Positions 10,994 through 62,947 of a DNA stretch of 64,000 nucleotides are shown here, one piece after another (position 1 is the stretch's first letter; every line of letters begins with the position of its first letter). The notes beneath the pieces were generated by a model. That model saw only the letters and a program-made list of their open reading frames with translations. It searched no databases and was not told the origin of the DNA. This stretch comes from Lachnospiraceae bacterium. Lineage in GTDB: Bacteria > Bacillota > Clostridia > Lachnospirales > Lachnospiraceae. The stretch covers positions 1 through 64,000 of the forward strand of contig FUZG01000012.1 of the NCBI GenBank assembly GCA_900168235.1, in the 5' to 3' direction. Made by a program: the position numbers and the translations under genes.

Positions 10994-11139
10994 GTTACTG
11001 TTCAGACGCAACCGGAGCACTACGCTGCGGAGGTTGCGACCAAGAAAGATGAAAAGCCATTGGATTTTGCCCATCGCCGGAGGCGATTTAATTGGCAAAA
11101 TCCGTTACGTGAGCGAGCTGGAAGCGAGTGAACAGTAAC
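10994..11139 (+). ncRNA. Structured leader element E1 (variable-stem family)
   Basis: Nested perfect helices: closing stem GTTACTGTTCA (10994-11004) with TGAACAGTAAC (11129-11139); P1 CGCAACC (11007-11013) with GGTTGCG (11032-11038); P2 GGATTTTGCC (11062-11071) with GGCAAAATCC (11094-11103); and an inner ATCGCC/GGCGAT (11073-11087). The P1 loop carries AGCACTACGCTGC. The element ends 10 nt before the ATG at 11150. It shares loop and layout with E5 at 53937, with compensating base changes in P1. Confidence 0.6.
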
Positions 11140-11149
11140 GAGCAAAAAG

Positions 11150-11365
11150 ATGGATACAGAAAAGATTCTTGAAGGCCTTTCGGACATGGGCTGCAATGAG
11201 AAAGAAATAAACTTTATGAAAAAGATGTATGAAGAAGGTGACACCGATACACTTCTTCGAGATCTTAGAAAATGCCGGTGCCATCTTATGGATGAGCTTC
11301 ATGACAGCCAGAAAAAAGTAGATAACATGGATTTTTTGATAAGACAGATTCAGAAAGAAAAATGA
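11150..11365 (+). CDS. Small helical hypothetical protein
   Basis: A 71-residue helical protein: LSDMGCNEKEINFMKKMYEE, a middle CRCHLMDELHDSQKKVDNMD, and a basic C-terminus. Similar small proteins accompany regulators and oxidoreductases in Lachnospiraceae, but I cannot name the family. The ribosome site is weak because structured element E1 ends only 10 nt upstream, so translation may be controlled by that structure. The stop lies 17 nt before the start of the hydrolase gene at 11383, consistent with one operon. Confidence 0.55.
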   Translation: MDTEKILEGLSDMGCNEKEINFMKKMYEEGDTDTLLRDLRKCRCHLMDELHDSQKKVDNMDFLIRQIQKEK

Positions 11366-11382
11366 TTCAGGAGGATGACAAA

Positions 11383-12384
11383 ATGATCAGAAAAGAAGAA
11401 CTAAACCTTGTAACCGAGTGGGATAAGACCTTTAAGAAAAGTGATAAGGTTGACCACAGCAAAGTAACATTCGTAAACAGATATGGAATCACCCTGGCAG
11501 CAGATATGTATGTTCCTAAGAATGCAGAGGGCAAGCTTTCTGCAATTGCTGTATGCGGGCCATTCGGAGCAGTTAAGGAGCAGTGTTCCGGTCTTTATGC
11601 TCAAACAATGGCTGAGAGAGGATTTTTGACGATAGCCTTTGACCCTTCTTTTACAGGAGAGTCCGGTGGGAATGTAAGATACATGGCATCTCCTGATATC
11701 AATACAGAAGACTTCATGGCAGCAGTTGATTTCCTTTCACTTAATGAAAAGGTAGATCCAGATAGGATTGGAATCATCGGTATCTGTGGTTGGGGCGGAA
11801 TGTCAATCAATACGGCAGCTCTTGATACAAGGATCAAAGCGACTGCAGCTATGACAATGTATGACATGACAAGAGTAAATGCCAAGGGATATTTTGACTC
11901 AGAAGACAGTGAAGAAGCAAGATATCAGCATAAGGCAGCTATGTGTGCGCAGAGACTGGAGGACCTTAAGGCTGGTGAATATAAGCTTGGCGGCGGAGTA
12001 GTAGATCCACTTCCGGAGGATGCACCTTTCTTTGTAAAAGACTACTATGACTATTACAAGACTGACAGAGGATATCACAAGAGAAGTCTTAATTCCAACG
12101 GTGGTTGGAATGTGATCGGCTGTGAGTCCTTCGTTAATCAGCCAATCCTTAAGTACAGCAATGAGATCAGAAGTGCAGTGTTACTTGTACATGGAGAAAA
12201 AGCACATTCATGCTATTTCTCAAAGGATGCATATGCAGATATGATCAAAGACAGCAAGTATGCAGACAATAAGGAACTTATGATAATCCCTGATGCGGTG
12301 CATACAGATCTTTACGATGGCGGGGATAAAGATTATATTCCGTTTGATAAGCTGGAGAGCTTCTTTAAGGAGAATTTGAAATAA
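11383..12384 (+). CDS. Alpha/beta hydrolase, YcjY-like, with Cys nucleophile
   Basis: A 333-residue alpha/beta hydrolase. The nucleophile elbow IGICGWGGMS places Cys135 where most members have Ser, as in dienelactone-hydrolase-like enzymes. A late strand LLVHGEKAH and the block DAVHTDLYD supply candidate acid and His residues. AGGAGG lies 8 nt before the ATG at 11383, favoured over 11362. It is followed after 12 bp by a flavodoxin-like reductase gene, a pairing often under LysR control in Firmicutes. Substrate unknown. Confidence 0.8.
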   Translation: MIRKEELNLVTEWDKTFKKSDKVDHSKVTFVNRYGITLAADMYVPKNAEGKLSAIAVCGPFGAVKEQCSGLYAQTMAERGFLTIAFDPSFTGESGGNVRYMASPDINTEDFMAAVDFLSLNEKVDPDRIGIIGICGWGGMSINTAALDTRIKATAAMTMYDMTRVNAKGYFDSEDSEEARYQHKAAMCAQRLEDLKAGEYKLGGGVVDPLPEDAPFFVKDYYDYYKTDRGYHKRSLNSNGGWNVIGCESFVNQPILKYSNEIRSAVLLVHGEKAHSCYFSKDAYADMIKDSKYADNKELMIIPDAVHTDLYDGGDKDYIPFDKLESFFKENLK

Positions 12385-12396
12385 GGATGGGATGAT

Positions 12397-12939
12397 ATGA
12401 GCAAAGTATTAGTTATTTCAACAAGCCTTCGTGTAAAAAGTAATTCGGATATACTTACAGAAAAGCTTATAGAGGGAGCAAAAGCGTCAGATCATGACGT
12501 GGAGCACATAAGCCTAAAAGGGAAGAATATAGGATTTTGTATAGGATGCCTGGCATGTCAGAGCTCGCAGAAATGTGTGCTAGGTGATGATGCGGTAGAG
12601 ATTGCAGAAAAAGTAAAGAATGCAGACACTCTCGTTTTTGCAACACCTATTTATTATTACGAGATGAGCGGCCAGATGAAAACTCTTTTGGACAGGCTCA
12701 ATCCGCTGTATCCTTCAGACTATAAGTTTAGGAATGTATATATGCTCTCTGTTGCGGCTGAGGATGAAGAGTTTGTGCCTAAAAAAGCTGAAAGTGGACT
12801 TCAGGGATGGATTGACTGCTTTGAAAAGGCTCAGTTTTCAGGCTCCTTATTCTGCGGTGGCATAGGTGATATGGGTGAGGCATCGAAAAAAACTGAAGAG
12901 TTAAACGAAGCCTTCGAATTTGGTAAAGCTCTAAAATAA
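12397..12939 (+). CDS. NADPH-dependent FMN reductase-like flavoprotein
   Basis: A 180-residue flavodoxin-fold protein of the iron-sulfur flavoprotein/FMN-reductase type. The first strand VLVISTSLRVKSNSD binds FMN phosphate, the segment FCIGCLACQSSQKC carries the Cys cluster of this subfamily, and ATPIYYYEMSGQMKTLLDR is the conserved second loop. It is cotranscribed with the hydrolase upstream and the lipoprotein downstream (12 bp gaps). It likely reduces quinones, flavin or an organic substrate. Confidence 0.85.
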   Translation: MSKVLVISTSLRVKSNSDILTEKLIEGAKASDHDVEHISLKGKNIGFCIGCLACQSSQKCVLGDDAVEIAEKVKNADTLVFATPIYYYEMSGQMKTLLDRLNPLYPSDYKFRNVYMLSVAAEDEEFVPKKAESGLQGWIDCFEKAQFSGSLFCGGIGDMGEASKKTEELNEAFEFGKALK

Positions 12940-12951
12940 AGGAAGTCTGCG

Positions 12952-13536
12952 ATGAAAACGAAAATGAATTTTCTGGCATTCTGTATGACCATAATGTTTT
13001 GCATGAGCGCCTGTGCAGGGACAACCAAAAACACAAGTGATGATCAGGGTGCCGTAAATGAAATATCAGCATCAGAAAATATTGAAATAGAAAGCTCGGA
13101 AAAGAATGTCATGTCGGAGGGAACAGCTATGTATCAGCTGGCAGAAAAAGATGAATCAGTAGATGATGAAGCTATTGGAGATAGTACAATGATAATGAAG
13201 ATTGGCGATACAAAAGTTAATGTGGAATGGGAAGACAATCAGGCTGTGGAAGCGTTGCGTGATATGGCTAAAGACGGTAATGTTACCATTCAGATGTCAA
13301 TGTATGGCGGTTTTGAACAGGTGGGTTCCATAGGACAGAGTTTGCCACGAGATGATAAGCAGACAACAACGAGTTCAGGCGACGTTGTACTATACTCCGG
13401 AAATCAGATGGTAGTGTTCTATGGTTCTAATAGCTGGTCATATACACGGTTAGGTCACATATCTGATAAGGATGAGGCTGGCATGACTGAGTTGCTTTCA
13501 AATGGCGATGTTACAATAACTATTAGCATGGGATAG
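12952..13536 (+). CDS. Lipoprotein with cyclophilin-like fold domain
   Basis: A 194-residue secreted protein with a lipobox ending MSAC at about residue 20. The C-terminal 110 residues match the cyclophilin-like fold family (Cyclophil_like2): MIMKIGDTKVNVEWEDN, MYGGFEQVGSIGQSLP, and VVLYSGNQMVVFYGSNSW. Such domains are commonly encoded next to flavodoxin and hydrolase genes, as here. Role unknown. A terminator follows at 13573. Confidence 0.8.
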   Translation: MKTKMNFLAFCMTIMFCMSACAGTTKNTSDDQGAVNEISASENIEIESSEKNVMSEGTAMYQLAEKDESVDDEAIGDSTMIMKIGDTKVNVEWEDNQAVEALRDMAKDGNVTIQMSMYGGFEQVGSIGQSLPRDDKQTTTSSGDVVLYSGNQMVVFYGSNSWSYTRLGHISDKDEAGMTELLSNGDVTITISMG

Positions 13537-13572
13537 GAATTATTAAAGTAGAAATATATTGGTACAAAAACG

Positions 13573-13610
13573 GTGGCTATAAGTCGAAAGATTTATAGTC
13601 ACTAATTTTT
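13573..13610 (+). terminator. Rho-independent terminator
   Basis: GTGGCTATAA (13573-13582) pairs with TTATAGTCAC (13593-13602), followed by TAATTTTTT. It closes the hydrolase/flavodoxin/lipoprotein operon. Confidence 0.8.
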
Positions 13611-13624
13611 TAAAAAATTATTTT

Positions 13625-13695
13625 GATGTAACTATTGACATTACATCTTTTGGGGTGATATATTTGCGTCATCAGATGAAACTGTAACGGTTACA
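13625..13695 (+). promoter_or_regulatory. Palindromic GTAAC operators and -35 box
   Basis: GATGTAA (13625-13631) and TTACATC (13641-13647) form an inverted repeat around TTGACA at 13635-13640. A perfect palindrome TGTAACGGTTACA lies at 13683-13695. They precede a gene remnant and the Rrf2 gene at 14126; Rrf2 autoregulation is plausible but not shown. Confidence 0.5.
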
Positions 13696-13890
13696 TCAAT
13701 GGACTTTTTAACATTCGAGGATGGAGATAAGGTTTTCCTTCAGACAGTATATAATTTTGCAGGAGCAGGAGAGCAGGTCGGATTCGATGTTTTTAGATTC
13801 GATGCAGACGGTAAGATTGCAGAGCACTGGGATGTAATGGAGACATTAGCTGATAAGTCTACATGGGCTAATGAAAACGGAAAGTTTTAA
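13639..13890 (+). pseudogene. SnoaL/NTF2-like protein, C-terminal remnant
   Basis: The frame reads FLTFEDGDKVFLQTVYNFAG and FDVFRFDADGKIAEHWD, the conserved C-terminal half of small SnoaL-like (NTF2-fold) proteins. The N-terminal half is absent, and the upstream sequence is instead operator-like. An ATG at 13699 would give a 63-residue product, too short to fold as the usual domain. It is read as a remnant that retains the natural stop codon. Confidence 0.5.
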
Positions 13891-14098
13891 CTCAGTCGGG
13901 GTAAAAGCTCCGACTGAGTTAAACGCTCCGCGAGGATGCGCACGGATTCGGACAGGAATTTGTCTGCTGAAGCAGACCCGAATCCGGCGCGCAAGACTCG
14001 CGAGCGAGTCTTGACTGTAACCATTGCAACTACATCTGTCACGACGTAAAATGATGGCAGGAGGGCGCAAATCGTCCAGTGGACGATTGTTCTGCGCC
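13889..14098 (+). ncRNA. Structured leader element E2 (variable-stem family)
   Basis: Starts with a hairpin AACTCAGTCGG/CCGACTGAGTT (13889-13920), then the core CGCTCCGCGAGGATGCGCAC (13924-13943). P2 is GGATTCGG (13944-13951) with CCGAATCC (13978-13985) and encloses GTCTGC/GCAGAC. Then come CAAGACTCGC (13992-14001)/GCGAGTCTTG (14004-14013) and a nested hairpin GGCGCA-AATCGTCC/GGACGATT-TGCGCC (14064-14098). It ends 27 nt before the Rrf2 start. Confidence 0.55.
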
Positions 14099-14125
14099 GA
14101 CCGAAATGGAATGGAGAGATTAAAA

Positions 14126-14566
14126 ATGCAGATATCAAGCAGATTTACGGTTGCACTTCATATTTTTACATGTGTGGATACATTTAAGGATGAACACAAG
14201 GTAACGAGCGATTTTCTTGCAGCCAGTATAAATACGAATCCTGTCATCATTAGAAAGATACTTACTCAGCTTAAGAACGCAGGGCTAATAAATGTTATCA
14301 GAGGAACAGGCGGAATAGAGCTTACAAGAGATCTTAAAGATATAACTTTTTATGATGTGTATCAGGCAATTGAGCCTTTGGAGGATGGAGATTTATTCAG
14401 ATTTCATGAATCACCAAATCCAGAGTGCCCTGTTGGTAGGAATATCCATTTACTTTTGGATGATAAGTTGAAAAGCATCCAGGAAGCGATGGAATCAGAG
14501 ATGAAAAAATACACTCTTAATGATTTAAGATCCGGAATGCAGGAACTGTTGGCAAAAGAAGCTTAA
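14126..14566 (+). CDS. Rrf2-family transcriptional regulator
   Basis: A 146-residue Rrf2 regulator. The domain opens MQISSRFTVALHIFTCVDTF, has the recognition segment NPVIIRKILTQLKNAGLINV and the wing GTGGIELTRDLKDITFYDVY. Only one Cys (ECPVGRN) lies in the sensor region, so it is not the three-Cys cluster type like IscR; it is closer to the YwnA group. The ATG at 14126 has GGAGAG upstream and is preferred over an upstream frame that would run through element E2. It stands between structured elements E2 and E3. Confidence 0.9.
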   Translation: MQISSRFTVALHIFTCVDTFKDEHKVTSDFLAASINTNPVIIRKILTQLKNAGLINVIRGTGGIELTRDLKDITFYDVYQAIEPLEDGDLFRFHESPNPECPVGRNIHLLLDDKLKSIQEAMESEMKKYTLNDLRSGMQELLAKEA

Positions 14567-14571
14567 CAATG

Positions 14572-14604
14572 AGACTCTGAGGTGTTTACTTCAGAGTCTT
14601 TTTT
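14572..14604 (+). terminator. Rho-independent terminator
   Basis: AGACTCTGA (14572-14580) pairs with TCAGAGTCT (14591-14599), followed by TTTTTT. It ends the Rrf2 transcript and abuts element E3. Confidence 0.9.
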
Positions 14605-14733
14605 ATGATATGAAATTTCTCCGAAATTCCTATATCATAAAAAACGCTCCGCTATGGATGCGCACTCGCGCGATAGGTAAATGTTGCATAAATGCAACCG
14701 CGCTCGGCGCGAGCATGTTGCAAGCAACATGCT
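14604..14733 (+). ncRNA. Structured leader element E3 (variable-stem family)
   Basis: A hairpin built on TATGATAT/ATATCATA with AAATTTC/GAAATT (14604-14639) is followed by the core ACGCTCCGCTATGGATGCGCAC (14643-14664), nearly the same as E2. Then come TTGCAT/ATGCAA (14684-14697) enclosed by CTCGCGC and GCGCGAG, and AGCATGTTGC/GCAACATGCT (14712-14733). It ends 20 nt before the ATG of the macro-domain gene at 14754. Confidence 0.55.
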
Positions 14734-14753
14734 TTCTTGGAAGGATGTGGAAT

Positions 14754-15179
14754 ATGTCAAAGAATACAACACAGGACGAACGCCTTGATTATCTCGTAGA
14801 AGAGTTTAAGGCAGATTCTGCTGAATATAAGGATTTAAAGACTCCAAATAGTACGGAAGATAAAAGACGAATCTTAAGGTCACTTATGAATATTCGTATG
14901 CCAAAAGAATTATCTTCTGAGGTCATGAAAGTACAGGATGAATATCTGACTGAAAGAGCGGCTGAAAAGGGTGTGGTGAATCTGTCAGACATCCCGGTTA
15001 TCAGGGACGGACTATCCATCTGGCAGGGTGATATTACGAGACTTTCGGTGGATGCTATTGTGAATGCTGCAAATTCGCAGATGCTGGGCTGTTTTGTTCC
15101 GATGCACACCTGTATAGATAAAGCGGCACCTACCTCAATCACACAGGCATACAACAAAAGAATGGCAAGGTGCTCGTAA
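14754..15179 (+). pseudogene. Macro-domain ADP-ribose hydrolase, truncated
   Basis: A 141-residue product with the N-terminal extension and first part of a zinc-type macro domain: SIWQGDITRLSVDAIVNAANS and MLGCFVPMHTCIDKAA are the conserved ADP-ribose-binding and zinc-site segments. After that the sequence diverges and stops; the remaining two thirds of the domain is missing. Right after the stop, an AlbA_2 fragment without start begins, so a deletion has joined two unrelated genes. AAGGA precedes the ATG. Confidence 0.7.
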
Positions 15180-15180
15180 A

Positions 15181-15552
15181 CCTTGCATTACCTGTAGAAA
15201 AGAAGCATATCTCATAGTTGGAGTGGAAGACGATTTCAATGTTATGGGGGTAGCTGAATGGAAAAAGTCTAACGAAATATATGACTGGATGAAATCTGTT
15301 GCTTTTGCAGGAGATAATGTTCCAAAAATTGAATTAAAAAAGGTATTTTATAAATATAAAAAATTGGATGTTCTTGTTATAAAACAATCGTGTAGTGTGC
15401 CTTTCTATATCGATAAAAATTATATGGGCGTTAATCCGTTTCAGATATATACCAGAGTAGGAGATACAAATACACCTAAGAATACTCAAGCTAGTTATGC
15501 GGATGTAGAAAGGCTATGGGGATATCATAGAAGTAGGAATAATAATCAATAA
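15181..15552 (+). pseudogene. AlbA_2 (Schlafen-like) domain protein, 5-prime truncated
   Basis: The open frame begins without a start codon and reads KEAYLIVGVEDDFNVMGV, the core strand of the AlbA_2 domain, then VPKIELKKVFYKYKKLDVLV and PFQIYTRVGDTNTPKN, also typical. It ends naturally at 15552. The first part of the domain is missing at the junction with the macro-domain remnant. These proteins are usually ATP-binding regulators or defence-linked. Confidence 0.6.
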
Positions 15553-15565
15553 AGTAAACTGTCGA

Positions 15566-15594
15566 GATCTCACCTTAATGGTGGGATCATTTCG
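15566..15594 (+). terminator. Weak hairpin terminator
   Basis: GATCTCACC (15566-15574) pairs with GGTGGGATC (15580-15588), one wobble, followed by ATTTCGTTT. It separates the remnants from the HNH nuclease gene. Confidence 0.45.
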
Positions 15595-15719
15595 TTTAAA
15601 ATCTTACCAGACAAAAAATTGCTGTTAGAGAGCAGATTACATGTAGTAAAATTTTCTTGATCATAGGAGTTAATCGGGCAAAATGAAGCGTGTAAAGGGG
15701 AAGTGCAATAGGGGGAAGA

Positions 15720-16853
15720 ATGCAATTACCGTATTCCGACGAATTGAATATTGGATATTTGAGCAGGCTTTTTGATAATACGACAAATTGCTATAAATTC
15801 TTTTGGTTTCAAGCCATCTTAAATAAGCTGGATGGAAAGAATAACAGTTTTTCATTTGACGAGCTTATCAATGAGATGATCGCCGATGCCTGGTATATGG
15901 TAACAGAGTATCATTTACGACTTGGACCGTTAGGTATCACTGATAATTTGGAAGAAGTGGTGAAGTATATTTATGCGGAGTATAAATATAAATCTTCGGA
16001 GAAGAGGGAAAAAATAATTGAATATCTCCAAGGAATGGATGACAAAAAAGTACTGAAGTACAAATCTGATCTGACATTGAATGTACCATATCGTTTACAG
16101 GTCCCTTTTTATGATGATATCAAGATTGAAAGGAACATGTGGAATGGTTCTAAGAAGAATCTGACCGATGAGATCAATCGTCAGCAAAGGCTAATGTATT
16201 ATTTTGTCTTGATATCCGGGCTTGGAACTAAAATTGAAGTAGATTCGTTGTGGGCGGAATATTTATATAAAAACAGAGAAATCTTAAAAGGCTGGACACA
16301 ACTGAAACTTATCCAGTATTTGCAAAATAAAAATCCAAGCGTACCGGGAATAGCAGATAAAATTGAAGCTCCTGCTGCAAGAGATATCGAGCGGGTGAGA
16401 AAATATTGGAAGGTGATCATTCAGGTTGACCCTTCGTTGAGGGATATCTATGGAGGTGAATTGTTAAAGGATGTAAATATATCGGTTGATCATTTTGTGC
16501 CATGGCAATATGTCGCACATGATGAATTATGGAATTTGCACCCTACAACGAAATCGATCAATAGCAGCAAGAGTAATTCTCTGCCTTCATGGAAAATGTA
16601 CTTTGAATCGCTGGGGAACATGGAATATAGTGCCTATGAACTTAGAGCAAAGAATGAGGTTGTTGCTCATGAGTTTGATAAAATAGCGCCATATCATTTG
16701 AATAACCAGGAGATTCGGAATCAGCTTTACGCTAAGGGCTTAAACAGAAATGAGTTTATAGGACGGCTTGAGCATGTTATAAAGCCTATTTATGAAACGG
16801 CACAAACTTTGGGCTTTAAGGAGTGGGTTTACGATGGCGGAAATAATTTATAA
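15720..16853 (+). CDS. HNH-endonuclease domain protein
   Basis: A 377-residue protein. The C-terminal third carries an HNH nuclease signature: ISVDHFVPWQYVAHDELWNL, then HPTTKSINSSKSNSLP, in which DH and the later N and K/S residues fit the HNH_4-type zinc-metal finger (core His near residue 257). The N-terminal part is helical and unassigned, possibly for target recognition. A strong GGGGGAAGA site precedes the ATG. The next gene (MazG-like) overlaps its end by 20 bp, so they are translated together. It looks like a defence-type nuclease. Confidence 0.75.
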   Translation: MQLPYSDELNIGYLSRLFDNTTNCYKFFWFQAILNKLDGKNNSFSFDELINEMIADAWYMVTEYHLRLGPLGITDNLEEVVKYIYAEYKYKSSEKREKIIEYLQGMDDKKVLKYKSDLTLNVPYRLQVPFYDDIKIERNMWNGSKKNLTDEINRQQRLMYYFVLISGLGTKIEVDSLWAEYLYKNREILKGWTQLKLIQYLQNKNPSVPGIADKIEAPAARDIERVRKYWKVIIQVDPSLRDIYGGELLKDVNISVDHFVPWQYVAHDELWNLHPTTKSINSSKSNSLPSWKMYFESLGNMEYSAYELRAKNEVVAHEFDKIAPYHLNNQEIRNQLYAKGLNRNEFIGRLEHVIKPIYETAQTLGFKEWVYDGGNNL

Positions 16854-17154: not shown

Positions 17155-17157
17155 TAA

Positions 17158-17361
17158 TTGTTTGCGAAATATAAGGATGCTGATAAACAGCTGCAGGAAA
17201 AGAAAAGCCTTTATTATATTGATGATTCCTTTAAGAAGATAGTTGTGGCAAAAACAGGCTTAAAACCTTCCTACGATGAGAAGGGAGTTATGATTATAGA
17301 TCTGTTTGACTTTCTTATGGATAATGTCGAGCCTAGCGTAACTTGTTTTCGGAGCACTTAG
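17158..17361 (+). CDS. Short hypothetical protein, probably a fragment
   Basis: A 67-residue frame starting at a TTG, 3 bp after the MazG-like gene. It reads KSLYYIDDSFKKIVVAKTG and KGVMIIDLFDFLMDNVE. No family recognised and no good ribosome site. It may be a truncated last gene of the HNH unit. Confidence 0.3.
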   Translation: MFAKYKDADKQLQEKKSLYYIDDSFKKIVVAKTGLKPSYDEKGVMIIDLFDFLMDNVEPSVTCFRST

Positions 17362-22547: not shown

Positions 22548-22548
22548 A

Positions 22549-33315: not shown

Positions 33316-33361
33316 AAAGTCACGCCCCAAGTCGAAAGGTTACCATCGAAAGCCCGGCGGG
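33316..33361 (+). repeat. 46-bp repeat, copy 1 (left of the proline island)
   Basis: This 46-bp segment, with the core AAGTCGAAAGGTTACCATCG, matches 44908-44953 at 44 of 46 positions in the same orientation. Together with the inverted fold-back copies it frames the proline island. Confidence 0.8.
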
Positions 33362-33609
33362 ATTTTCCGAATCCCGGTCACGCTGTACTAATCCTTCGCG
33401 CCGAGTGTACTGCCACATTGATGATCAGGCAAATAACTTGTATAAATAACGCTATGCTTCGTCAGCTTCAATCGCCGTAGCCCGCTACGACTCATTCAGC
33501 TTCCTTGCATATCATCATTTATACAGCGTTATTCGTCTAAAAATCAATGTGCCAGTACACTTGGAATCGCGCTCACGAAGTACAGCGGACAGTGTATCCG
33601 TCAAATCCC
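33359..33609. repeat. Large fold-back element A1
   Basis: Arms extend over more than 100 bp each. GGGATTT (33359) pairs with AAATCCC (33603-33609); CGCTGTACT with AGTACAGCG; AGTGTACTGCCACATTGAT (33404-33422) with the segment at 33543-33561, one mismatch; an AATAAC...GTATAAAT block pairs with ATTTATAC...GTTATT further in. No coding frame is convincing. Unique in the window but built like B3 at 45273. Confidence 0.7.
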
Positions 33610-33725
33610 AAACGCCTCAAATGCTTTCTTAGGCAAGCCTTTCGCCTCGAGGCTGATTTTCGCAGAATGTTCATTTGTTGCTATATTTCTTATGGCTAAG
33701 GAATGTTTAAGCGCACTTTCAGCTG

Positions 33726-33945
33726 GCGTTAATCAGGAAGCGGAGAGCGTTGCTTTCCATAAGCATCCCGTAAAGAACCGCACAGGTGAGATCCACTGCA
33801 TACGAAGACTTGGCACGCAGGGCAAGAGCTATGCTGGAAGCGAATGTCCTGCGTGCTTATGTCGAAGTCAGCAGTTAGCTCACCGTTGTGTCGGTTCTCC
33901 GGGATGTGTTGGAAACAACGCCCTACGCTTCCGTCAACGCGTCAC
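33726..33945 (+). repeat. Inverted-arm element A2, copy 1 of a ~215-bp repeat
   Basis: About 220 bp with self-complementary arms: GGAAGCGGAGAGCGTTGC pairs with the segment AACAACGCCCTACGCTTCC, and ACCGCACAGGTGAG with CTCACCGTTGTGTCGGT, while GCACGCAGG and CCTGCGTGC close the inner stem. The reverse complement of 44965-45176 matches by eye at about nine tenths of positions. It lies about 165 bp before the PrdC-like gene; another hairpin GCAGTATAAG/CTTATACTG follows at 33996-34050. Confidence 0.75.
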
Positions 33946-43676: not shown

Positions 43677-44909
43677 ATGAGATTAAAGGATTTAGGATTA
43701 ACAGCGCAGGACATAAAGGACAAGGTTCAGAAGTACATGATCGAAACCTATGAGCGTTTTGATTTTATCGCTGAGACTGCCGCAGACCAGTATATTTACG
43801 ATGAGAACGGCACGCCGTATTTGGATTTCTACGCAGGAATCGCGGTAAATTCTGCGGGAAACTGCAATAAAAAGGTGGTCGAGGCGGTAAAGGACCAGGT
43901 CTCCGACATCATGCACACTTTCAATTATCCGTATACCATCCCGCAGGCACTCCTTGCAGAAAAGGTCTGTACCACCATCGGAATGGACAAGATTTTTTTC
44001 CAGAACTCCGGCACTGAGGCGAATGAAGCCATGATCAAGATGGCGCGTAAGTACGGTATTGAAAAGTACGGTCCGAATAAGTACCACATCGTCACAGCAA
44101 AGATGGGCTTCCATGGCAGAACCTTCGGCGCAATGTCTGCAACAGGTCAGCCGGGCAATGGCTGTCAGGTTGGTTTCGGTCCCATGACATATGGTTTTTC
44201 CTACGCCCCCTACAATGATCTGCAGGCTTTCAAGGATGCCTGCACGGAAAACACCATCGCTGTAATGGTCGAGCCTGTACAGGGTGAGGGCGGTGTTCAT
44301 CCCGCCACAAAGGAATTTCTCTGCGGACTCCGTGAGTTCTGCGATGAAAAGGGAATGTTGCTCCTTATCGATGAAGTCCAGACCGGATGGTGCAGGACAG
44401 GCGCTCCCATGAGCTACATGAACTACGGCATAAAGCCGGATATTGTTTCCATGGCAAAGGCACTCGGCGGAGGAATGCCGATCGGCGCGATTTGTGCAAC
44501 AAGCGAAGTTGCAAAGGCTTTCACTCCGGGTTCCCACGGCACTACCTTCGGCGGCCATCCGGTGAGCTGTGCGGCAGCACTTGCCGAGGTGACAGAGCTT
44601 CTGGAGCGTAACCTCGCAGGAAATGCAAAGAAAATGGGTGAGTACTTCATGTCAAAGCTCGAAACTCTTCCTCACGTAAAAGAGGTCAGAGGGCAGGGGC
44701 TCCTCGTTGGCGTAGAGTTCGACGACACTATTTCAGGCGTCGAAGTGAAACACGAATGTTTACACCGATATCTTCTCATCACAGCCATCGGAGCGCACAC
44801 CATCCGAATGATCCCGCCTCTCATCATCGACGAAGCCGACTGCGACGCAGCAGTTGACATCATCCGCGAGGCGGTCAAGGCGCTGGCTAAGTCCGAGGCT
44901 ATTGCGTAA
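43677..44909 (+). CDS. Class III (ornithine/GABA-type) aminotransferase
   Basis: A 410-residue PLP aminotransferase: FQNSGTEANEAMIKMARKY and GFHGRTFGAMSATG bind PLP phosphate, LLIDEVQTGWCRTG gives the Asp, SMAKALGGGMPIGAI the Schiff-base Lys, and TTFGGHPVSCAAALA the Thr. GGAGG stands 8 nt before the ATG at 43677 but only 2 nt before 43671. Placed after proline racemase, it could act on 5-aminovalerate, the product of proline reduction, or on ornithine. The stop codon overlaps the start of the 46-bp repeat. Confidence 0.85.
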   Translation: MRLKDLGLTAQDIKDKVQKYMIETYERFDFIAETAADQYIYDENGTPYLDFYAGIAVNSAGNCNKKVVEAVKDQVSDIMHTFNYPYTIPQALLAEKVCTTIGMDKIFFQNSGTEANEAMIKMARKYGIEKYGPNKYHIVTAKMGFHGRTFGAMSATGQPGNGCQVGFGPMTYGFSYAPYNDLQAFKDACTENTIAVMVEPVQGEGGVHPATKEFLCGLREFCDEKGMLLLIDEVQTGWCRTGAPMSYMNYGIKPDIVSMAKALGGGMPIGAICATSEVAKAFTPGSHGTTFGGHPVSCAAALAEVTELLERNLAGNAKKMGEYFMSKLETLPHVKEVRGQGLLVGVEFDDTISGVEVKHECLHRYLLITAIGAHTIRMIPPLIIDEADCDAAVDIIREAVKALAKSEAIA

Positions 44910-44953
44910 AGTCAAGCCTCAAGTCGAAAGGTTACCATCGAAAGCCCGGCGGG
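44908..44953 (+). repeat. 46-bp repeat, copy 2 (right of the proline island)
   Basis: Direct copy of 33316-33361 with two differences. It begins within the stop codon of the aminotransferase, which marks a sharp boundary of the island. Confidence 0.8.
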
Positions 44954-44964
44954 GGTTTTAACAA

Positions 44965-45176
44965 GTGACGGAAGCGGGGAGCGTTGTTTCCAACACATCC
45001 CGGGGAACCGGCACTACGGTGAGCTAACTGCTTACTTCGACTACAGCACGCAGGACATTCGCTGTCGGAATAGCTCTTGCCCTGCGTGCAAAGTCTTCGT
45101 ATGCAGTGGATCTCACCTGTGCGGTTCTTAACGGGATGCTTATGGAAAGCAACGCTCCCCGCTTCCTGACGTTTGC
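44965..45176 (-). repeat. Inverted-arm element B2, copy 2 of the ~215-bp repeat
   Basis: Reverse-complement copy of 33726-33945 with small differences scattered over the length, including paired changes in opposite arms (for example the AGCTATTCCGACAGC region in the loop). It has the same self-complementary arms, GGAAGCGGGGAGCGTTG with CAACGCTCCCCGCTTCC. Confidence 0.75.
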
Positions 45177-53936: not shown

Positions 53937-54076
53937 AAATCGTATCTGTTCAGTATCTTCACAGATACGATTTCGCATACCCATGCAAATTTGCCTTCGG
54001 CAAAGAGCATGCTCACTCTCATATCATGTTCTCACATCCTCAGTAGCAAGTGCTTCGGACTGTGTTGAACAGTTAC
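53937..54076 (-). ncRNA. Structured leader element E5 (variable-stem family)
   Basis: Read on the minus strand: GTAACTGTTCA (54076-54066), P1 CACAGTCC with GGATGTG (bulged G) around a loop with AGCACTTGCT, P2 GCATG/CATGC enclosing TTTGCC/GGCAAA, then a 13-bp terminal hairpin AAATCGTATCTGT/ACAGATACGATTT. TGAACAGATAC at 53952-53942 can instead pair with the first segment (10 of 11), so closing stem and terminal hairpin exclude each other. It ends 24 nt before the LTA-synthase-like start. Confidence 0.6.
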
Positions 54077-58211: not shown

Positions 58212-58244
58212 GTAAAATTACACTTGTTTAGAGGAGTATTAGTG

Positions 58245-59315
58245 ATGAGTGAACAAACACAGCCGATCACACTTAAGGAAAGGGTTCGTGGCGCAGCAGA
58301 GGAGTTTGGTCTTCCGAGACTGATAATAACCGGTTTCCTTGTGCTTTTGCTCATAGTATCACCCTTTGTCGGAGCTGATCTTCCGACACAGATATCAAAT
58401 ATCATCAACCGCTTTAGCTGGAATGGAATACTGGTTTTAGCGATGGTTCCCATGGTGCACTCCGGATGCGGACTGAATTTCGGTCTCCCGCTCGGTATCA
58501 TTTCGGGACTTCTCGGAGCTACCTTATCCATTGAGCTTGGATTTTCAGGGTCATTTTCATTCTTTATGGCGGCACTTTTAGCTACACCTTTTGCCCTTGT
58601 ATTCGGAACAGTTTACGGATGGCTTTTAAATAAGATAAAGGGCGGAGAAATGATGATCGCAACATACGTTGGATTTTCATCGGTTTCTCTCATGTGCATG
58701 ATGTGGCTTCTCCTTCCCTACCACAGCCCGAACATGGTTTGGGGAATGGCAGGTAAGGGCCTTAGAACAACAATATCTCTTGAAGGATATTACACACAGG
58801 CGCTCGCAAAGATCCTTCAGATCAACATCGGAAATCTTTCGATTCCGACAGGAGCTATCCTTTTCTTTGCGCTCCTGGCATTTGGCATGTGGGCATTCCT
58901 TCATACAAAGACCGGAACAGCTATGACTGCTGTAGGTTCAAACCCTGAGTTTGCCAGATCTGCAGGTATCAATGTAGACAAGATAAGGATCATCTCAGTT
59001 GTGATGTCTACATGGCTCGCAGCTATCGGAATCCTTGTGTATGAGCAGGGATTTGGATTTATCCAGCTTTATATGGCACCTTTCTACATGGCGCTTCCTG
59101 CTGTTTCAGCTATCCTTATCGGAGGAGCGACAGTAAACAAAGCGTCCATCATGAACGTTATCATCGGTACGATCCTTTTCCAGGGTATCGTTACCATGAC
59201 ACCTACTGTAATGAACAATATGATCCACCTCGACATGAGTGAGGTTATTAGAATCATTGTTTCCAACGGAATGATCCTGTATGCACTTACGAGAAAGACG
59301 GAGGGAACAAAATGA
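58245..59315 (+). CDS. ABC transporter permease 1 of the DUF3798 system
   Basis: A 356-residue permease of the BPD_transp_2 class with about nine hydrophobic helices: VHSGCGLNFGLPLGIISGLLG, KGGEMMIATYVGFSSVSLM, VGSNPEFARSAGINVDKIRI. GAGGAG precedes the ATG at 58245. It overlaps permease 2 by 4 bp (ATGA), so the two probably form a heterodimer. Confidence 0.9.
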   Translation: MSEQTQPITLKERVRGAAEEFGLPRLIITGFLVLLLIVSPFVGADLPTQISNIINRFSWNGILVLAMVPMVHSGCGLNFGLPLGIISGLLGATLSIELGFSGSFSFFMAALLATPFALVFGTVYGWLLNKIKGGEMMIATYVGFSSVSLMCMMWLLLPYHSPNMVWGMAGKGLRTTISLEGYYTQALAKILQINIGNLSIPTGAILFFALLAFGMWAFLHTKTGTAMTAVGSNPEFARSAGINVDKIRIISVVMSTWLAAIGILVYEQGFGFIQLYMAPFYMALPAVSAILIGGATVNKASIMNVIIGTILFQGIVTMTPTVMNNMIHLDMSEVIRIIVSNGMILYALTRKTEGTK

Positions 59316-60415
59316 ATAAGTACAACGTAAGCGATATCTTAAGAAGATTTTCCGTTCCCATCATGTTTGTCCTGATCTGCGTGATCTGCGCGCCGATATC
59401 CGGACTGTCACCGAGCTATCTTGCAAATGAGATCGTGACAAGAATGGGAAGAAATGCGTTCCTGATACTGAGTCTCCTTATCCCAATCATGGCGGGAATG
59501 GGACTGAATTTCAGCATGACTCTGGGAGCCATGGCAGGTGAGATAGGTCTGATACTTGTCTGCGACTGGCAGATCATCGGTATCCCGGGAATGATACTCG
59601 CGATGATCATTTCCATCCCGATCTCTGCGCTCCTCGGACTTTTCTGCGGAAAGGTCCTGAACATGGCAAAGGGCAGAGAGATGATCACGAGTTACATTAT
59701 AAGCTTCTTTATAAATGGTATATATCAGCTCGTAGTGCTCTACCTTATGGGACCTGTCATCCCGATAAAGCACAGCACAATAAAGCTTCCCAGAGGCTAT
59801 GGTGTCAGAAATACAGTATCTCTGCTGTCAATGAGACAGAAGCTGGATAACCTTATCCCGCTTTCCATCGCAGGAGTAAAAATTCCTGTGGCTACATTTA
59901 TCATCGTATTTTTACTCTGTCTCGTGATCGTATGGTTCAGAAAGACCAAACTCGGACAGGATATGAGAGCAGTGGGACAGGATATGGAAGTTGCGAAGGA
60001 TGCAGGTATCAATGTAGAGCGCACAAGAATCATTTCCATGGTGCTTTCTACAGTATTTGCCGGAGTCGGTATGATAATCTACCTTCAGAACATGGGAAAT
60101 ATCGCGACTTACAGTTCACACTCACAGATCGGAATGTTCTGTATCGCAGCGCTTCTTGTAGGCGGTGCTTCCGTTGACAAGGCATCGATCGGAAATGTAT
60201 TTCTCGGAATCGTACTGTTCCACACAATGTTCATCGTAGCGCCGAAGGCAGGAACAGTCATCACAGGCGACTCCATGATCGGTGAGTATTTCCGTGTATT
60301 CGTTTCATACGCAGTCATCACAGTTGCACTTGTAATGTATGAGACTAATAAGAGAAAAAATAAGAGTAAGGCCGGAGAACAGCTGGCATTAGATCAGGAG
60401 GCAGCAAATGAATAA
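59312..60415 (+). CDS. ABC transporter permease 2 of the DUF3798 system
   Basis: A 367-residue paralogue of permease 1: MAGMGLNFSMTLGAMAGEIG, KGREMITSYIISFFINGIYQ, VGQDMEVAKDAGINVERTRI, ALLVGGASVDKASIGNV. The stop overlaps the next gene by 8 bp. Both permeases share the same order of motifs, so they arose by duplication. Confidence 0.9.
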   Translation: MNKYNVSDILRRFSVPIMFVLICVICAPISGLSPSYLANEIVTRMGRNAFLILSLLIPIMAGMGLNFSMTLGAMAGEIGLILVCDWQIIGIPGMILAMIISIPISALLGLFCGKVLNMAKGREMITSYIISFFINGIYQLVVLYLMGPVIPIKHSTIKLPRGYGVRNTVSLLSMRQKLDNLIPLSIAGVKIPVATFIIVFLLCLVIVWFRKTKLGQDMRAVGQDMEVAKDAGINVERTRIISMVLSTVFAGVGMIIYLQNMGNIATYSSHSQIGMFCIAALLVGGASVDKASIGNVFLGIVLFHTMFIVAPKAGTVITGDSMIGEYFRVFVSYAVITVALVMYETNKRKNKSKAGEQLALDQEAANE

Positions 60416-60887
60416 GGCGAATAAAAAGACATGGATATATCGCTTTGCGGCACTTGCTGCAGTACTTCTGGTCGCAGCGGCCATGTTTATCATAGGCAGA
60501 GGACATACGGTTTATTTTGACAACAAGATGCCTGAAAATGCATCCGGAAACATAGAGGTTCCTTACAGTATCGAAGTCTTTGTTAATGGAGAGAAAGTAG
60601 CGAAATTAAAGGACGGCGACAGAGGCATGGCAGAGACCATGGGACAGAACTTCAAGATGGAGCTCCTTGTCACAAAGGAAAAGGGCGGAAAAACTTCCAA
60701 GATTGAGGTTGGAATGTCCCTTCCCTACAACATGGACGGCATTATTCTGAATCTTCCGGCAATGCTTGCCGGTATGGACGAGAGTCAGTACCTCACAGAA
60801 TTTATCCCGACACCTTCAAGCGAGGATACGGAGGACGAGGAAGTCGTAACAGACGACACCGAAGGACTTATGGATTTTGGAGAATAA
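60408..60887 (+). CDS. DUF6672-like single-TM protein
   Basis: A 159-residue protein with one N-terminal membrane helix (FAALAAVLLVAAAMFIIG) and an external beta-rich part, VYFDNKMPENASGNIEVPYS and VFVNGEKVAKLKDGDRGMAE, ending in an acidic tail. It occurs at the end of DUF3798 transporter operons, matching what I know as DUF6672. An accessory role in the transporter is inferred from overlap with permease 2. Confidence 0.7.
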   Translation: MNKANKKTWIYRFAALAAVLLVAAAMFIIGRGHTVYFDNKMPENASGNIEVPYSIEVFVNGEKVAKLKDGDRGMAETMGQNFKMELLVTKEKGGKTSKIEVGMSLPYNMDGIILNLPAMLAGMDESQYLTEFIPTPSSEDTEDEEVVTDDTEGLMDFGE

Positions 60888-60905
60888 GATAAAAATGAGT
60901 TGAAG

Positions 60906-60942
60906 AGAGCCATCACGGTTTGTCGTGATGGCTCTTTGTCTT
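60906..60942. terminator. Bidirectional terminator
   Basis: AGAGCCATCACG (60906-60917) pairs with CGTGATGGCTCT (60924-60935), followed by TTGTCTT, between convergent genes. Confidence 0.85.
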
Positions 60943-62335
60943 ATACCGACCCGAAGCTGTCATAGTATATACATCTATGGCTGCAGCCTCCATTAAAAAG
61001 CTTTTTGCAGGCTTTCATACAATAGGTTGCTTCCTCTTCGCTCTGGTTCCGACCTATTCGTTTTCTTATGTACCCGATATTTTCAAAGTTTGCTTCCTTT
61101 CCGGGTATTAATGCGGCACAGGCATTAACCCAGATCACATTGCAGTCGTCATGAGCACACAGGTCAAGAGACAGCTTAAAGTCGTGAGAGCCTGTGGAAT
61201 ATGCAGGAGCTATGATCAGTGTGAGCATAAAACTTCTCATGATGCGCTCCATATATTCATTAGTAAGGAAATCCTTACAGATCATGACTGCGAAACGGCC
61301 GATCCCTTCGTAGTGAAAGATCGCTATCTTTGTGTCCTGCCTCAGATTCTCCCTATATTGTCCATGACTTGTTTTAATGAAAAACGGATTATGCTTATGC
61401 TGTCTCGTAAGTACGGAGCCATGCCTGTCGAGAACTGAAGAATAGTTGTATCCATCGATACTACAGGAGGGGAGTACGATGATCGAAGGTATATGTTTGG
61501 CTTGCTCACCGTCGAGAGCTCTGAGCTTATTTTGTATAAATGTCTCCATTGTAGGATTGCCAAGCATCTCCGGGAATACTATCAGCTCGCTGCCTTTTTC
61601 TCCTGCAAGTAAAATCTTTTTCCACACAAGTTCGTTGTCTGCCTTCGCAAGTGCGGGATTGTAGTTAATGTTAAAAATCTGGAAATGCTCGGTTTTTTTG
61701 TAGTGAATATCAAAATTTGATTTTGCATTCAGCGGTGATGCCGCAACGTTAAGCTGTTTCGTTTTCTCGAAGGTTGGAAAAGATCCCCGGGGAATAAATA
61801 TGTGCTCAGCCTCAATGTCAGGCACATCCTCAACCACCAGAAGGTAACTAAGATAACTGTCGATCCTTACATATGAGAAAGAATGTCTGTGTTTTCTGGA
61901 CCATACGCAGCGCATCTTTGGCAAAAGGGAAATCCCGGTTGTATTCCGGTTTGTATTGATCTCTGTAGATACGAGCTTCTCTTCAAGAATTTCCCGTTCA
62001 TCATAAAGAAGAACCGACACAGTTTCATCCAGAGCCTGCAGAAACCGTATAATTCCGTTCTTATCTTTTGTTTTTAAAAGCAAGTCTTTGAAATTATATA
62101 GCTTTTCGATGTATTCCTGAGTTATATCAGGCTCAAAAACAGGAATGTACTTGTTCTTATTACTCATATAGAGATCAGTATTTTCCTGTATAAAATTATC
62201 AATGCGGATTTTTTCCTTTATAGAAATGCTTTTATATAAAACAAGGTATTCCTTACCTATGGAACTAATTAAAAATGAGCATAATTCAGCAATTATGTTA
62301 TATATCAAGATTCTGTAAGGAATGTGTTGTTCCAT
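60941..62335 (-). CDS. Carbon-nitrogen hydrolase (nitrilase-like) protein
   Basis: A 464-residue protein. The second half is a nitrilase/CN-hydrolase domain with the triad Glu in ELIVFPEMLG, Lys in LTRQHKHNPF and Cys in FAVMICKDFL, followed by IIAPAYSTGSHDFKLSL. The first 200 residues are unassigned. It ends with a cluster of four Cys (CMKACKKL, GGCSHRC). Such domains also occur fused to defence-type reverse transcriptases (DRT type 1); no reverse transcriptase is present here. The 5-prime end overlaps a nucleoside-hydrolase fragment, so the true start could be further in. Confidence 0.65.
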   Translation of the reverse strand: MEQHIPYRILIYNIIAELCSFLISSIGKEYLVLYKSISIKEKIRIDNFIQENTDLYMSNKNKYIPVFEPDITQEYIEKLYNFKDLLLKTKDKNGIIRFLQALDETVSVLLYDEREILEEKLVSTEINTNRNTTGISLLPKMRCVWSRKHRHSFSYVRIDSYLSYLLVVEDVPDIEAEHIFIPRGSFPTFEKTKQLNVAASPLNAKSNFDIHYKKTEHFQIFNINYNPALAKADNELVWKKILLAGEKGSELIVFPEMLGNPTMETFIQNKLRALDGEQAKHIPSIIVLPSCSIDGYNYSSVLDRHGSVLTRQHKHNPFFIKTSHGQYRENLRQDTKIAIFHYEGIGRFAVMICKDFLTNEYMERIMRSFMLTLIIAPAYSTGSHDFKLSLDLCAHDDCNVIWVNACAALIPGKEANFENIGYIRKRIGRNQSEEEATYCMKACKKLFNGGCSHRCIYYDSFGSV

Positions 62336-62750
62336 CGTAACGAGAACCCCTTTCGTTCATCTTAGTGTAGTTTTTGAGTATTTCATGGTGCTGTGCGTAC
62401 CATTCTTCTCCGCCCTGACGCTGATACATGAATTTTCCGTTAGGGTTCGGAGTGAAGTTTACTGTAGCATCATCATTTATTGTGAGGTCACCCCGTTCGG
62501 AGTAAACAAAAGTGCCAGGGAATACAGCATTGAGTACACAAAGGTGATCCCACATACGCTGTCCGGTTTCACAGTTTTTGTACATATAGGTCTGCTTTAT
62601 CGGATGTACATTTACATCCGCGAGGTCAGATAGAACTTCAGAAGGCTTGTATTCGAGAGCGTCGCCTACAGGACTTGGTGACAGATAGGTAGTCACGTTG
62701 GAAGGAAGCCCTGCATCCATCATCTTATTTCGGCATATTGCTCCATACAA
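62298..62750 (-). pseudogene. Nucleoside hydrolase, C-terminal remnant
   Basis: Reads MWDHLCVLNAVFPGTFVYSE and LTINDDATVNFTPNPNGKF, similar to the end of inosine-uridine-type nucleoside hydrolases (WDPLAVLYAV region). The N-terminal DTD metal site is missing and the C-terminus runs into the CN-hydrolase gene. It is read as a fragment left by a deletion; the assignment is tentative. Confidence 0.4.
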
Positions 62751-62771
62751 TAGAGTGTTTATATGATGTCA

Positions 62772-62947
62772 GGGTCAAAAGGTCAAAATCCGATTGTGCT
62801 TGCACAAAGAGGATTGAGACCTTGGGACCCGCAAAACACGAGCAAGTAGCGTTATTACGCGGAATGCGAGTGTTTTAGGATTGCGGGAATTGCATAGCAA
62901 TGAAGCAATCCGTGACATCAGTAAGGGGCAAAATTTACTTTTGACCC
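62772..62947 (+). ncRNA. Structured element E6 (variable-stem family)
   Basis: Closing stem GGGTCAAAAG (62772-62781) with CTTTTGACCC (62938-62947); P1 GTCAAAATCC (62782-62791) with GGATTGAGAC (62811-62820) around a CTTGC-containing loop; P2 CCCGCAAAACAC (62828-62839) with GTGTTTT...GCGGG (62870-62887), and GGATTGC/GCAATCC (62878-62911) as a further stem. Same order as E1 and E5. It is 248 nt upstream of the next plus-strand start, beyond the promoter at 63005. Confidence 0.5.

Follow-up and report, generated by a model that had tools for sequence, protein, structure and literature searches.

Five folded segments, E1, E2, E3, E5 and E6, lie in the window, by which we mean the whole 64,000-nucleotide stretch that was analysed (Lachnospiraceae bacterium, contig FUZG01000012.1). 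The segments and the features attached to them are listed by position.

10986-10993, no strand: left target-site duplication of E1, GAGCAAAA (8/8 match; single copy in relatives)
10994-11139, plus strand: E1, a 146-bp miniature inverted-repeat element (MITE) with terminal inverted repeats (TIRs) GTTACTGTTCA..TGAACAGTAAC, inner hairpins P1 and P2 and a small last hairpin; unfilled site known
11140-11147, no strand: right target-site duplication of E1, GAGCAAAA (8/8 match; single copy in relatives)
13887-14014, plus strand: E2, a 128-bp unit of the core family, with hairpin hpA (13887-13922), core (13923-13943) and hairpin hpB (13993-14012)
14571-14605, plus strand: intrinsic terminator (stem 14571-14600) and T-tract TTTTTTA, the insertion target of E3
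14606-14739, plus strand: E3, 134 bp of inserted DNA as judged against the unfilled site of genome G004, with core (14644-14665), hpB (14712-14733) and right end CTTTCTTG
53942-54076, minus strand: E5, a 135-bp MITE with TIRs GTAACTGTTCA / GTATCTGTTCA
62758-62764, no strand: left duplication of E6, TTTATAT (7 bp)
62764-62920, plus strand: match to Rfam RF01699 (Clostridiales-1) inside E6, 128.2 bits against a gathering score of 48
62765-62954, plus strand: E6, whole 190-bp element with ends GATGTCAGGGTCAAAAG..CTTTTGACCCTTACATC
62955-62961, no strand: right duplication of E6, TTTATAT (7 bp)

Folded, repeated elements are present at all five sites, as an earlier note on this DNA had proposed (folding relative to shuffled sequence: z -8.5 for the E2 stretch, 13886-14110, and z -9.9 for the E6 stretch, 62760-62955). 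That note took the five to be one family, whereas the data divide them into three: E1 with E5 (TIRs of one type, and target duplications of 8 bp among their family members), E2 with E3 (a common core, and insertion without duplication) and E6. Its narrower likenesses were borne out, namely the end sequences and P1 hairpin common to E1 and E5, and the core ACGCTCCGC..GGATGCGCAC common to E2 and E3. Boundaries required revision: the E2 unit is 13887-14014 rather than 13889-14098, and E6 reaches 62954 rather than 62947. The described position of the elements, ending 10-30 nt before a start codon, is correct locally for E1, E3 and E5, but does not hold across the family: among 29 E1-family loci the next ORF downstream lies anywhere from 1 to 1114 nt away.

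The suggestion that the elements are undescribed fails for E6, which is RF01699, and stands for E1-E3 and E5 to the extent that none has an Rfam match at gathering score. A relaxed threshold gave three matches to these four, all far below gathering score and taken as chance: the best was sau-19 (26.6 of 80 bits, over the hpA stem of E3), followed by SNORD107 and Aar. None of the four matched RF01699 even at a relaxed threshold, and no paper describing elements of these kinds was among the literature matches listed, drawn from a scope without most subscription journals.

Elements with inverted ends: E1, E5 and E6

E1 and E5 are MITEs: they have terminal inverted repeats, no transposase gene and many copies, E1 having 46 matches within the source genome and model matches in 30 of 48 genus genomes (with stricter filters and limited candidates per genome, copy numbers from the genus-wide search are lower bounds). 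Duplications are of fixed length. Of 30 E1-family loci one (L030) was dropped for having no pair of ends; the target duplication matches at 8/8 positions in 21 of the remaining 29, at 7/8 or more in 24, and at 6/8 or fewer in 5. E5's own duplication has decayed (GATGTTTT/GATTTATT, 6/8); relatives of E5 that are 83-90% identical occur in genomes G004, G005, G030 and G001, and the four relatives examined have duplications of 8/8, 7/8, 7/8 and 6/8. The E1 site is unfilled in five relatives (L292 in G024, a second unfilled-looking site, was left out of the alignment). There, an SD-like AAGGAG lies directly 5' of the ATG at 11151; in the window the two are now apart because E1 inserted between them. 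The claimed covariation of P1 is evident in the E1/E5 type, with both sides changed in 4 of 7 pairs among 19 rows.

A search for autonomous E1 copies in 20 stretches of the source genome, mostly around unpaired TIRs, gave none. The stretches contain known copies, solo ends, Clostridiales-1 chimeras, small derivatives and likely chance matches, and the inverted E1 TIR pairs in them with at least six matching flank bases are known copies only. E1-type ends are nevertheless found on autonomous elements of other genus genomes: IS66-like transposase elements (PF03050) have ends identical to those of the E1 family over up to 16 bases, and two of them (L140 and L135) also carry 8/8 duplications, while a third (L137) has no duplication. 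Only a divergent PF03050 group has an E1-type end pair; the high-scoring group, considered as partner, has none. In the partners the DDE_Tnp_IS66 domain is above the Pfam cut-off, and their scores of 124-173 bits are below the NCBIfam IS66 equivalog cut-off of 180 bits. The source genome itself has no IS66 match at 1e-10. IS66 elements generate 8-bp duplications and have ends starting GTAA. From the TIR type and the 8-bp duplication, both observed, an IS66-like DDE transposase probably mobilises E1 and E5 in trans.

E6 matches RF01699 end to end, and 21 of 29 RF01699 matches in the source genome are over the cut-off. Together with its neighboring hairpin, E6 looks transposon-like, being a repeat of 190 bp that is bounded by inverted ends and flanked by a 7-8 bp duplication. 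Where both ends of an RF01699 copy were found, flanks share at least seven bases in 5 of 13 cases, compared to 1 of 156 mismatched pairs (14 of 27 loci were dropped for missing one end). No partner transposase was found for RF01699. Rfam types the family as an sRNA gene. We take the three columns that classify it in Weinberg 2010 to be RNA, cis-regulatory and switch. In the part of that paper used here, the Clostridiales-1 entry is y/n/n (PMC2864571).

The E2/E3 core family and its insertion sites

The family of E2 and E3 has no Rfam match and is common in Lachnospiraceae (taxon spread was judged from 80 of 120 record titles, using loci up to L261). Among 21 listed E2-type copies, 18 are 128 bp long, two are 127 bp and one is 209 bp, the unit start having been set by default wherever hpA was not recognised. 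A relative, G024, has an unfilled E2 site, the extra DNA here being 13891-14015. Because G024 matches 14016-14604 without E2, the supposed last hairpin of E2 (about 14065-14100) is native DNA. The unfilled sites of E2 and E3 show that both insert without target duplication, and near-identical copies of the family sit in unrelated flanks.

Covariation above background, found also for P1 of the E1 family, is strong in E2/E3. From 75 full copies, reduced to 43 by similarity, 30 plus E3 were aligned: 91.0% of cells are paired, 30 of 44 pairs have changed on both sides, and double-changed cells number 176, compared to 47.8 in shuffled alignments (0 of 500 shuffles reach that number). In a test for chance pairing of the hpA arms, pairing falls from 0.959 with the own partner to 0.487 after arms are swapped (28 of 129 core matches were left out for missing flank; the control count is 12 and the denominator at most 101). 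Such covariation fits folded single-stranded DNA and structured RNA equally well.

Members of the E3 type are shown to insert immediately 3' of the hairpin of an intrinsic terminator, within its T-tract. At E3, hpA pairs with the target T-tract, and terminator and tract (14571-14605) are present without E3 in G004, G001 and G024. Of 64 T-runs of E3-type copies, 34 have a hairpin scoring at least 7 in front of them, compared to 116 of 3000 controls; 20 further E3-type matches have no T-run of at least four upstream. In the complete genome G024, diverged E3 satellites lie behind a hairpin of score 10 or more in 15 of 15 cases, compared to 28 of 400 control T-tracts (these are 15 of at least 18 matches to model R2, at 40-46 bits, and with stricter filters copy numbers are lower bounds). 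Further copies from G030, G005, G004 and the source genome are behind a hairpin in 15 of 20 cases (9 of 10 in G030). Assignment at some single loci was partly by eye; the counts given are scripted. E2-type copies do not show this rule: none of L390, L397 and L398, which are E2-type and related copies, follows a hairpin that scores 10, and neither do L384 and L399.

The right end of E3-type copies tends to be a terminator-like hairpin and T-tract of their own, so that insertion would leave both a terminator and a new target. Copies behind other copies support this step: two copies of the insertion sequence described below (L454 and L457) and one element (L389) are located behind the terminal hairpin of another copy.

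Candidate transposases and rival explanations

A 1.57-kb element, present in G024 in 12 near-identical copies, shares the T-tract target and left-end motif of E3. Its transposase is of the IS91 type, a Y2 enzyme with an N-terminal zinc-binding domain (PF04986, 142.7 bits; PF14319, 87.5 bits; both over cut-off). The copies are behind a hairpin of score 10 or more in 10 of 12 cases, compared to the same 28 of 400 controls, and by script 2 of 12 have no close hairpin; 12 pairs of ends were compared in finding no duplication. TATAGGAAATTYC stands at the left junction of both E3-type and IS91-like elements, and both have a terminator-like hairpin at the right; the sequence of this hairpin and the core are not common to them (the right end of the IS91-like element is TTTTTTAT). 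Neither the IS91-like element (none with up to four substitutions) nor the 15 G024 satellites carry the core, so the link to E3 rests on the common target and the short end motif. CTTG or GTTC occurs near the right end of 23 of 74 E3-type and 12 of 17 E2-type tails, compared to 32 of 470 controls, 34 matches having been skipped; 51 of 74 E3-type tails have neither. These are the reverse complements of CAAG and GAAC, which the part of PMC3189936 used here gives as the tetranucleotides targeted by IS801 (IS91 family). The source genome has no match to the G024 protein, and no such transposase was found at 1e-4 in 120 core loci of other genomes plus one viral contig; E2-type copies gave no partner transposase.

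We read E3, on the sequence evidence, as a putative non-autonomous satellite of an IS91-type element. The IS91-type (HUH) transposase would move E3-type copies as single strands and would recognise hairpins rather than sequence, which would leave the stems free to covary. An IS200/IS605-type (Y1) transposase, the kind of enzyme proposed for REP sequences, is unlikely to be what moves E2 and E3 instead. The lack of duplication, hairpins at both ends and a target left on the 5' side would all suit such an enzyme, Y1 genes are widespread, occurring in 22 of 48 genus genomes, and the E2 type has no partner yet; however, the core or tested hairpins were in none of 30 Y1 loci examined from a longer list, and it is the IS91-type element that has the E3-type target and end motif. 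The same element, being at hand with the same target, makes it very doubtful that E2 and E3 are satellites of a stem-loop-targeting retroelement. A group IIC intron would be an example: these attack DNA stem-loops and insert 3' of them (PMC10190682, in the part used), and E3-type copies do lie 3' of stem-loops.

The earlier note also allowed for cis-acting RNAs (riboswitch, leader or 3'-UTR element) selected beside particular genes. Strong E2/E3 covariation is compatible with this, as are the placement of E2/E3 at the 3' end of an upstream gene (a same-strand ORF precedes 56 of 70 placed loci) and a same-strand downstream ORF in 22 of 29 E1-family copies. But E2/E3 neighbors are unrelated (the 77 upstream ORFs split into 72 clusters and the 77 downstream ones into 75), and no neighboring gene class is conserved, which argues against a cis-regulator. 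(ORFs of at least 90 codons were called by a crude script; only the 77 loci with 500 bases each side were used, 6 of them inside ORF calls; and L170, a likely chance match in Gemmatimonadetes, was left out of the placement, neighbor-cluster and tail-tetranucleotide counts.) Near-identical copies in unrelated flanks, duplications and unfilled sites stand against it too, as does E1, which lies between AAGGAG and the start codon of an ORF that has no E1 there in relatives. The idea is largely refuted and we consider it highly improbable. Intergenic DNA is rich in small hairpins, and E1-E6 might be ordinary hairpins and terminators alike by chance; copy numbers, duplications, unfilled sites and covariation relative to shuffles refute this almost beyond doubt.

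Our overall explanation, which we consider probable, is that E1-E6 fall into three families of mobile elements, all of them non-autonomous, and that their strong folding is chiefly a property of DNA in transposition. The alternative label in the earlier note, fold-back mobile repeats, thus proves apt for E1, E5, E2 and E3 (duplications, unfilled sites, candidate partner transposases), and is likely so for E6 on account of its duplications. All three kinds seem to borrow the enzymes of other elements, and one of them settles directly behind transcription stop signals in gut and rumen bacteria. A more specific proposal, to which we give an even chance, is that an IS91-type HUH lineage specialised on terminator T-tracts, its own far-end terminator preserving termination and recreating the target, and spawned satellites recognised by hairpin shape that now serve as portable 3'-end terminators across the Lachnospiraceae. 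Should this hold, terminators offer an HUH transposon a safe harbour, and structural conservation by itself, usually read as marking a new RNA, can be a product of transposition through single-stranded DNA; doubt would then fall on RF01699 as an sRNA, and on other clade-limited 'RNA' families known by covariation only. A terminator-seeking, gene-sparing transposase may also serve as an insertion tool in anaerobes.

Each family has known counterparts. Unlike its Rfam description, RF01699 here sits inside an element of 190 bp that has inverted ends and duplicated flanks. E1 and E5 resemble IS66 elements and derived MITEs in their 8-bp duplication, ends starting GTTA/GTAA and DDE_Tnp_IS66-domain partner; they differ in a multi-hairpin interior, in having 146-bp and about 200-bp forms, and in a partner that scores under the equivalog cut-off for IS66 proper. 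With the IS91 family (IS91, IS801), the candidate partner shares Y2_Tnp and Zn_Tnp_IS91 domains, and E2/E3 share insertion without duplication and, at part of their right ends, the complement of the IS801 tetranucleotides. The target, however, is an intrinsic-terminator T-tract, and the satellites measure about 130 bp and have stems that covary, whereas IS801 miniature forms, in the part of the source used, are plain end fragments (PMC3189936). REP sequences with TnpA-REP (HUH Y1) are likewise palindromic and proposed to be non-autonomous and HUH-dependent (PMC8266576, in part), but E2/E3 are larger, have a constant core and, in the E3 type, terminator targets, with no Y1 link in 30 loci. Stem-loop targets without duplication are also known for IS1272 (PMC5678879, in part), which takes the place of the stem-loop; in the present case the terminator hairpin is kept, with the element inside its T-tract. 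Group IIC introns similarly insert 3' of DNA stem-loops (PMC10190682), but are retroelement ribozymes with a maturase, whereas E3, at 134 bp, is probably partnered by an HUH transposase.

Assignment of the five elements to families

Five folded intergenic elements of the window, read in the earlier note as a single family of cis-acting RNAs or fold-back mobile repeats, belong to three mobile families rather than one RNA family:

10994-11139: E1, of the E1/E5 family
13887-14014: E2, of the E2/E3 family
14606-14739: E3, of the E2/E3 family
53942-54076, minus strand: E5, of the E1/E5 family
62765-62954: E6, an RF01699 element

What is new is the E2/E3 family: its E3 type seeks out terminators and has a candidate partner of the IS91 type.

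The five stretches were searched against Rfam, and then against their own genome (the source assembly) and 47 other genomes from its genus, probably Butyrivibrio. The sole Rfam match at gathering score was that of E6 to RF01699 (Clostridiales-1; 128.2 bits). A relaxed Rfam search gave sau-19 (26.6 of 80 bits, E 0.09) on the stem of hairpin A in E3, SNORD107 (21.1 of 50 bits) and Aar (24.4 of 60 bits), all so far under the gathering score that they were treated as chance matches.

Two other repeats were seen in the window. The longer, at 33316-33936 and 44908-45169, has 51-nt direct copies (92%) and 204-nt inverted arms (92% complementary); it gave no Rfam match at gathering score and is possibly one more structured mobile family. 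At 8111-8154 a tandem 11-mer-based repeat like ATGTCCGCAAA is present three times.

The E1/E5 family and RF01699

The 3.79-Mb own genome contains 46 matches to E1 DNA. Copies begin with the left end GTTACTGTTCA, or near variants, and carry an inverted repeat at the other end; a left and a right end could be matched up in 29 of 30 fetched loci, the remaining locus (L030) being without a left end. Across these 29 loci the 8-bp flanks are identical in 21, agree at 7/8 positions in three and at 6/8 or fewer in five. E1 itself is flanked left and right by GAGCAAAA, and the site is uninterrupted in five relatives, with a single GAGCAAAA in G001, G004, G005 and G024 and a single GAGCAATA in G030. In the unfilled site AAGGAG stands immediately 5' of the ATG at 11151, which opens a short ORF (~71 codons, by eye): the 146-bp insert plus duplication has thus displaced a Shine-Dalgarno-like sequence 154 bases from the ORF.

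There are two size forms, 146 bp and ~200 bp. In the 39-pair structure 94.1% of cells are paired and 23 are double-changed, a result equalled by none of 500 shuffles (a control that relatedness inflates). A covariance model of the E1 type (R1) finds matches in 30 of the 48 genus genomes, with up to at least 65 per genome. E5 represents a distinct 135-bp subfamily with ends of the E1 type and flanks agreeing at 6/8 bases; its relatives (83-90% identical) are present in four genomes, and the four examined show duplications of 8/8, 7/8, 7/8 and 6/8. Neighbouring ORFs at 29 E1-family loci are tandem on the same strand in 15 cases, divergent in seven, tandem on the opposite strand in six and convergent in one, an orientation bias.

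Genes for PF03050 (DDE_Tnp_IS66) occur in 18 of the 48 genus genomes; none was found in the own genome at 1e-10. A divergent group, whose proteins score above the Pfam cut-off and below the NCBIfam IS66 cut-off, resides in elements of 2.2-2.4 kb with ends GTTACTGTTCA, GTTACAGTTCA, GTTACTATTCA or GTTACCATTCA, and up to 16 bases agree between these ends and those of the E1 family. Two such elements (L140 and L135) have 8/8 duplications and one (L137) is without duplication; most others run into a contig end at one side or both. We infer that an IS66-like transposase moves E1 in trans.

RF01699 is probably, though with less certainty, a mobile repeat too. The own genome has 29 matches, 21 of them above the cut-off, and E6, taken together with its adjoining hairpin, measures 190 bp, has GATGTMAGGGTC as inverted ends and is flanked by duplicated TTTATAT. 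At 13 of 27 loci the two ends could each be located, and the flank bases in common number eight in L041 and L044, seven in E6, in L055 and, once shifted, in L039, six in three loci and fewer in five. Seven or more are shared by 5 of 13 own pairs vs 1 of 156 mismatched pairs. No partner was found for RF01699. Composite copies were also seen in the own genome: L093 (C26) and L094 (C11) join an E1 right end to Clostridiales-1-like sequence, and L053 (C5:161358-161559) is a long-form E1-family copy inserted into a Clostridiales-1 (RF01699) copy.

The E2/E3 family, its target and its candidate partner

The core ACGCTCCGCN{1,6}GGATGCGCAC is present in at least 120 genome-contig stretches, and also on one viral contig; the 80 core-match titles listed are mostly Lachnospiraceae or genera thereof, with a few others. 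The layout runs from hairpin A through a mini hairpin, CTCC[GCNNN]GGA, and P1, P2 and P3 to a final hairpin B. Covariation lies above background: over 31 aligned rows and 44 pairs the score is 0.366 vs 0.130 for shuffled data (0.03 to 0.10 for the slid structure), with 91.0% of cells paired vs 76.6%, and 30 pairs changed on both sides vs 18.0. Hairpin A lies directly beside the core in 83 of the 101 loci whose flank was long enough (12 on a control window placed further upstream); each arm pairs solely with its own partner (0.959 vs 0.487). A subtype ending TATAGTAAGCG..ACTATA was seen in G008 (L375-L379), a genome with 57 model matches, many at contig ends.

Sites without the element were found for E2 in G024 and for E3 in G004, G001 and G024 (the right flank in G001 agreeing for only ~13 bases); none of those compared shows a target duplication. 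G001 and G004 carry E2 at the same position, and several genera hold near-identical E2-type copies with unrelated flanks. Neighbours are diverse, forming 72 clusters of 77 upstream and 75 of 77 downstream, and of 70 loci that could be placed, 56 have a same-strand ORF ahead of the element.

Where E3 is missing, its site is a T-tract, that of the terminator at 14571-14600. A hairpin of score at least 7 stands directly before the T-run in 34 of 64 E3-type core hits (those with a T-run from other genomes, the own genome and the window; 20 more are without one) vs 116 among 3000 other T-runs. G024 is a complete genome; all 15 copies fetched there from 18 model hits – the satellites – have a hairpin of score at least 10 whose end lies no more than 16 bases from the junction, vs 28 of 400 TTTT[AG] controls; they are a diverged subtype in which the exact core is absent, with 0/15 within four substitutions. 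Of 20 further copies 15 pass the same test, including 9/10 in G030, a genome with six copies whose core is near that of E3. The failures are L384, L399, L390, L397 and L398; because the last three have E2-like or TTAAAG-type ends, the E2 type falls outside the terminator rule.

The left-junction motif of hairpin A, TATAGGAAATTYC, occurs at 33 places in G024: 15 in satellites, 12 in one ~1.57-kb repeat and six in other sequence. The repeat encodes a 382-codon ORF (Y2_Tnp plus Zn_Tnp_IS91); 12 near-identical copies exist in G024, one at 93% in G023 and a partial one in G040, and none in the own genome. Ten of the 12 have the junction hairpin by script; an eleventh (L456) lies behind a longer hairpin, and the G023 and G040 copies likewise behind terminator-like hairpins (all by eye). 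The right end, GTGCCGAAGGCACTTTTTTAT, is identical across all 12. Satellite and IS91-like candidate partner therefore have target, left motif and terminator-like right end in common; the E2/E3 core was not found in the candidate partner.

No partner has been found so far for the E2 type. Divergent IS91-type transposases (28-32% identity) with differing flanks were seen in the same genus at L443 (ORF with two stops), L444, L445, L446, L448 and L459, and are possible partners. ORFs of ~250-280 codons with weak Y1_Tnp matches (L316-L320) adjoin other repeats, and presumably resemble REP-associated transposases.

Proposed mechanism and comparison with IS801

E2/E3 elements insert without duplication, the E3 type at terminators, and have covarying hairpins at each end; an element with an HUH-type transposase and the E3-type target is co-resident with the satellites. 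Transposition may proceed as a single strand recognised by hairpin shape, guided by pairing between the A-rich foot of hairpin A and the T-tract of the target. The terminal T-tract would then regenerate the target, a step supported by two IS91-like copies (L454, L457) and the element L389, each positioned behind another copy's terminal hairpin.

CTTG or GTTC is present in the tails of 23 of 74 E3-type copies, 12 of 17 E2-type copies, none of three copies of a third type and 32 of 470 controls. Since 51 of the 74 E3-type tails are without either, support for an IS801-like tetranucleotide is only partial. On the transposase strand the two motifs read CAAG or GAAC, and PMC3189936 gives both among four tetranucleotides of IS801.
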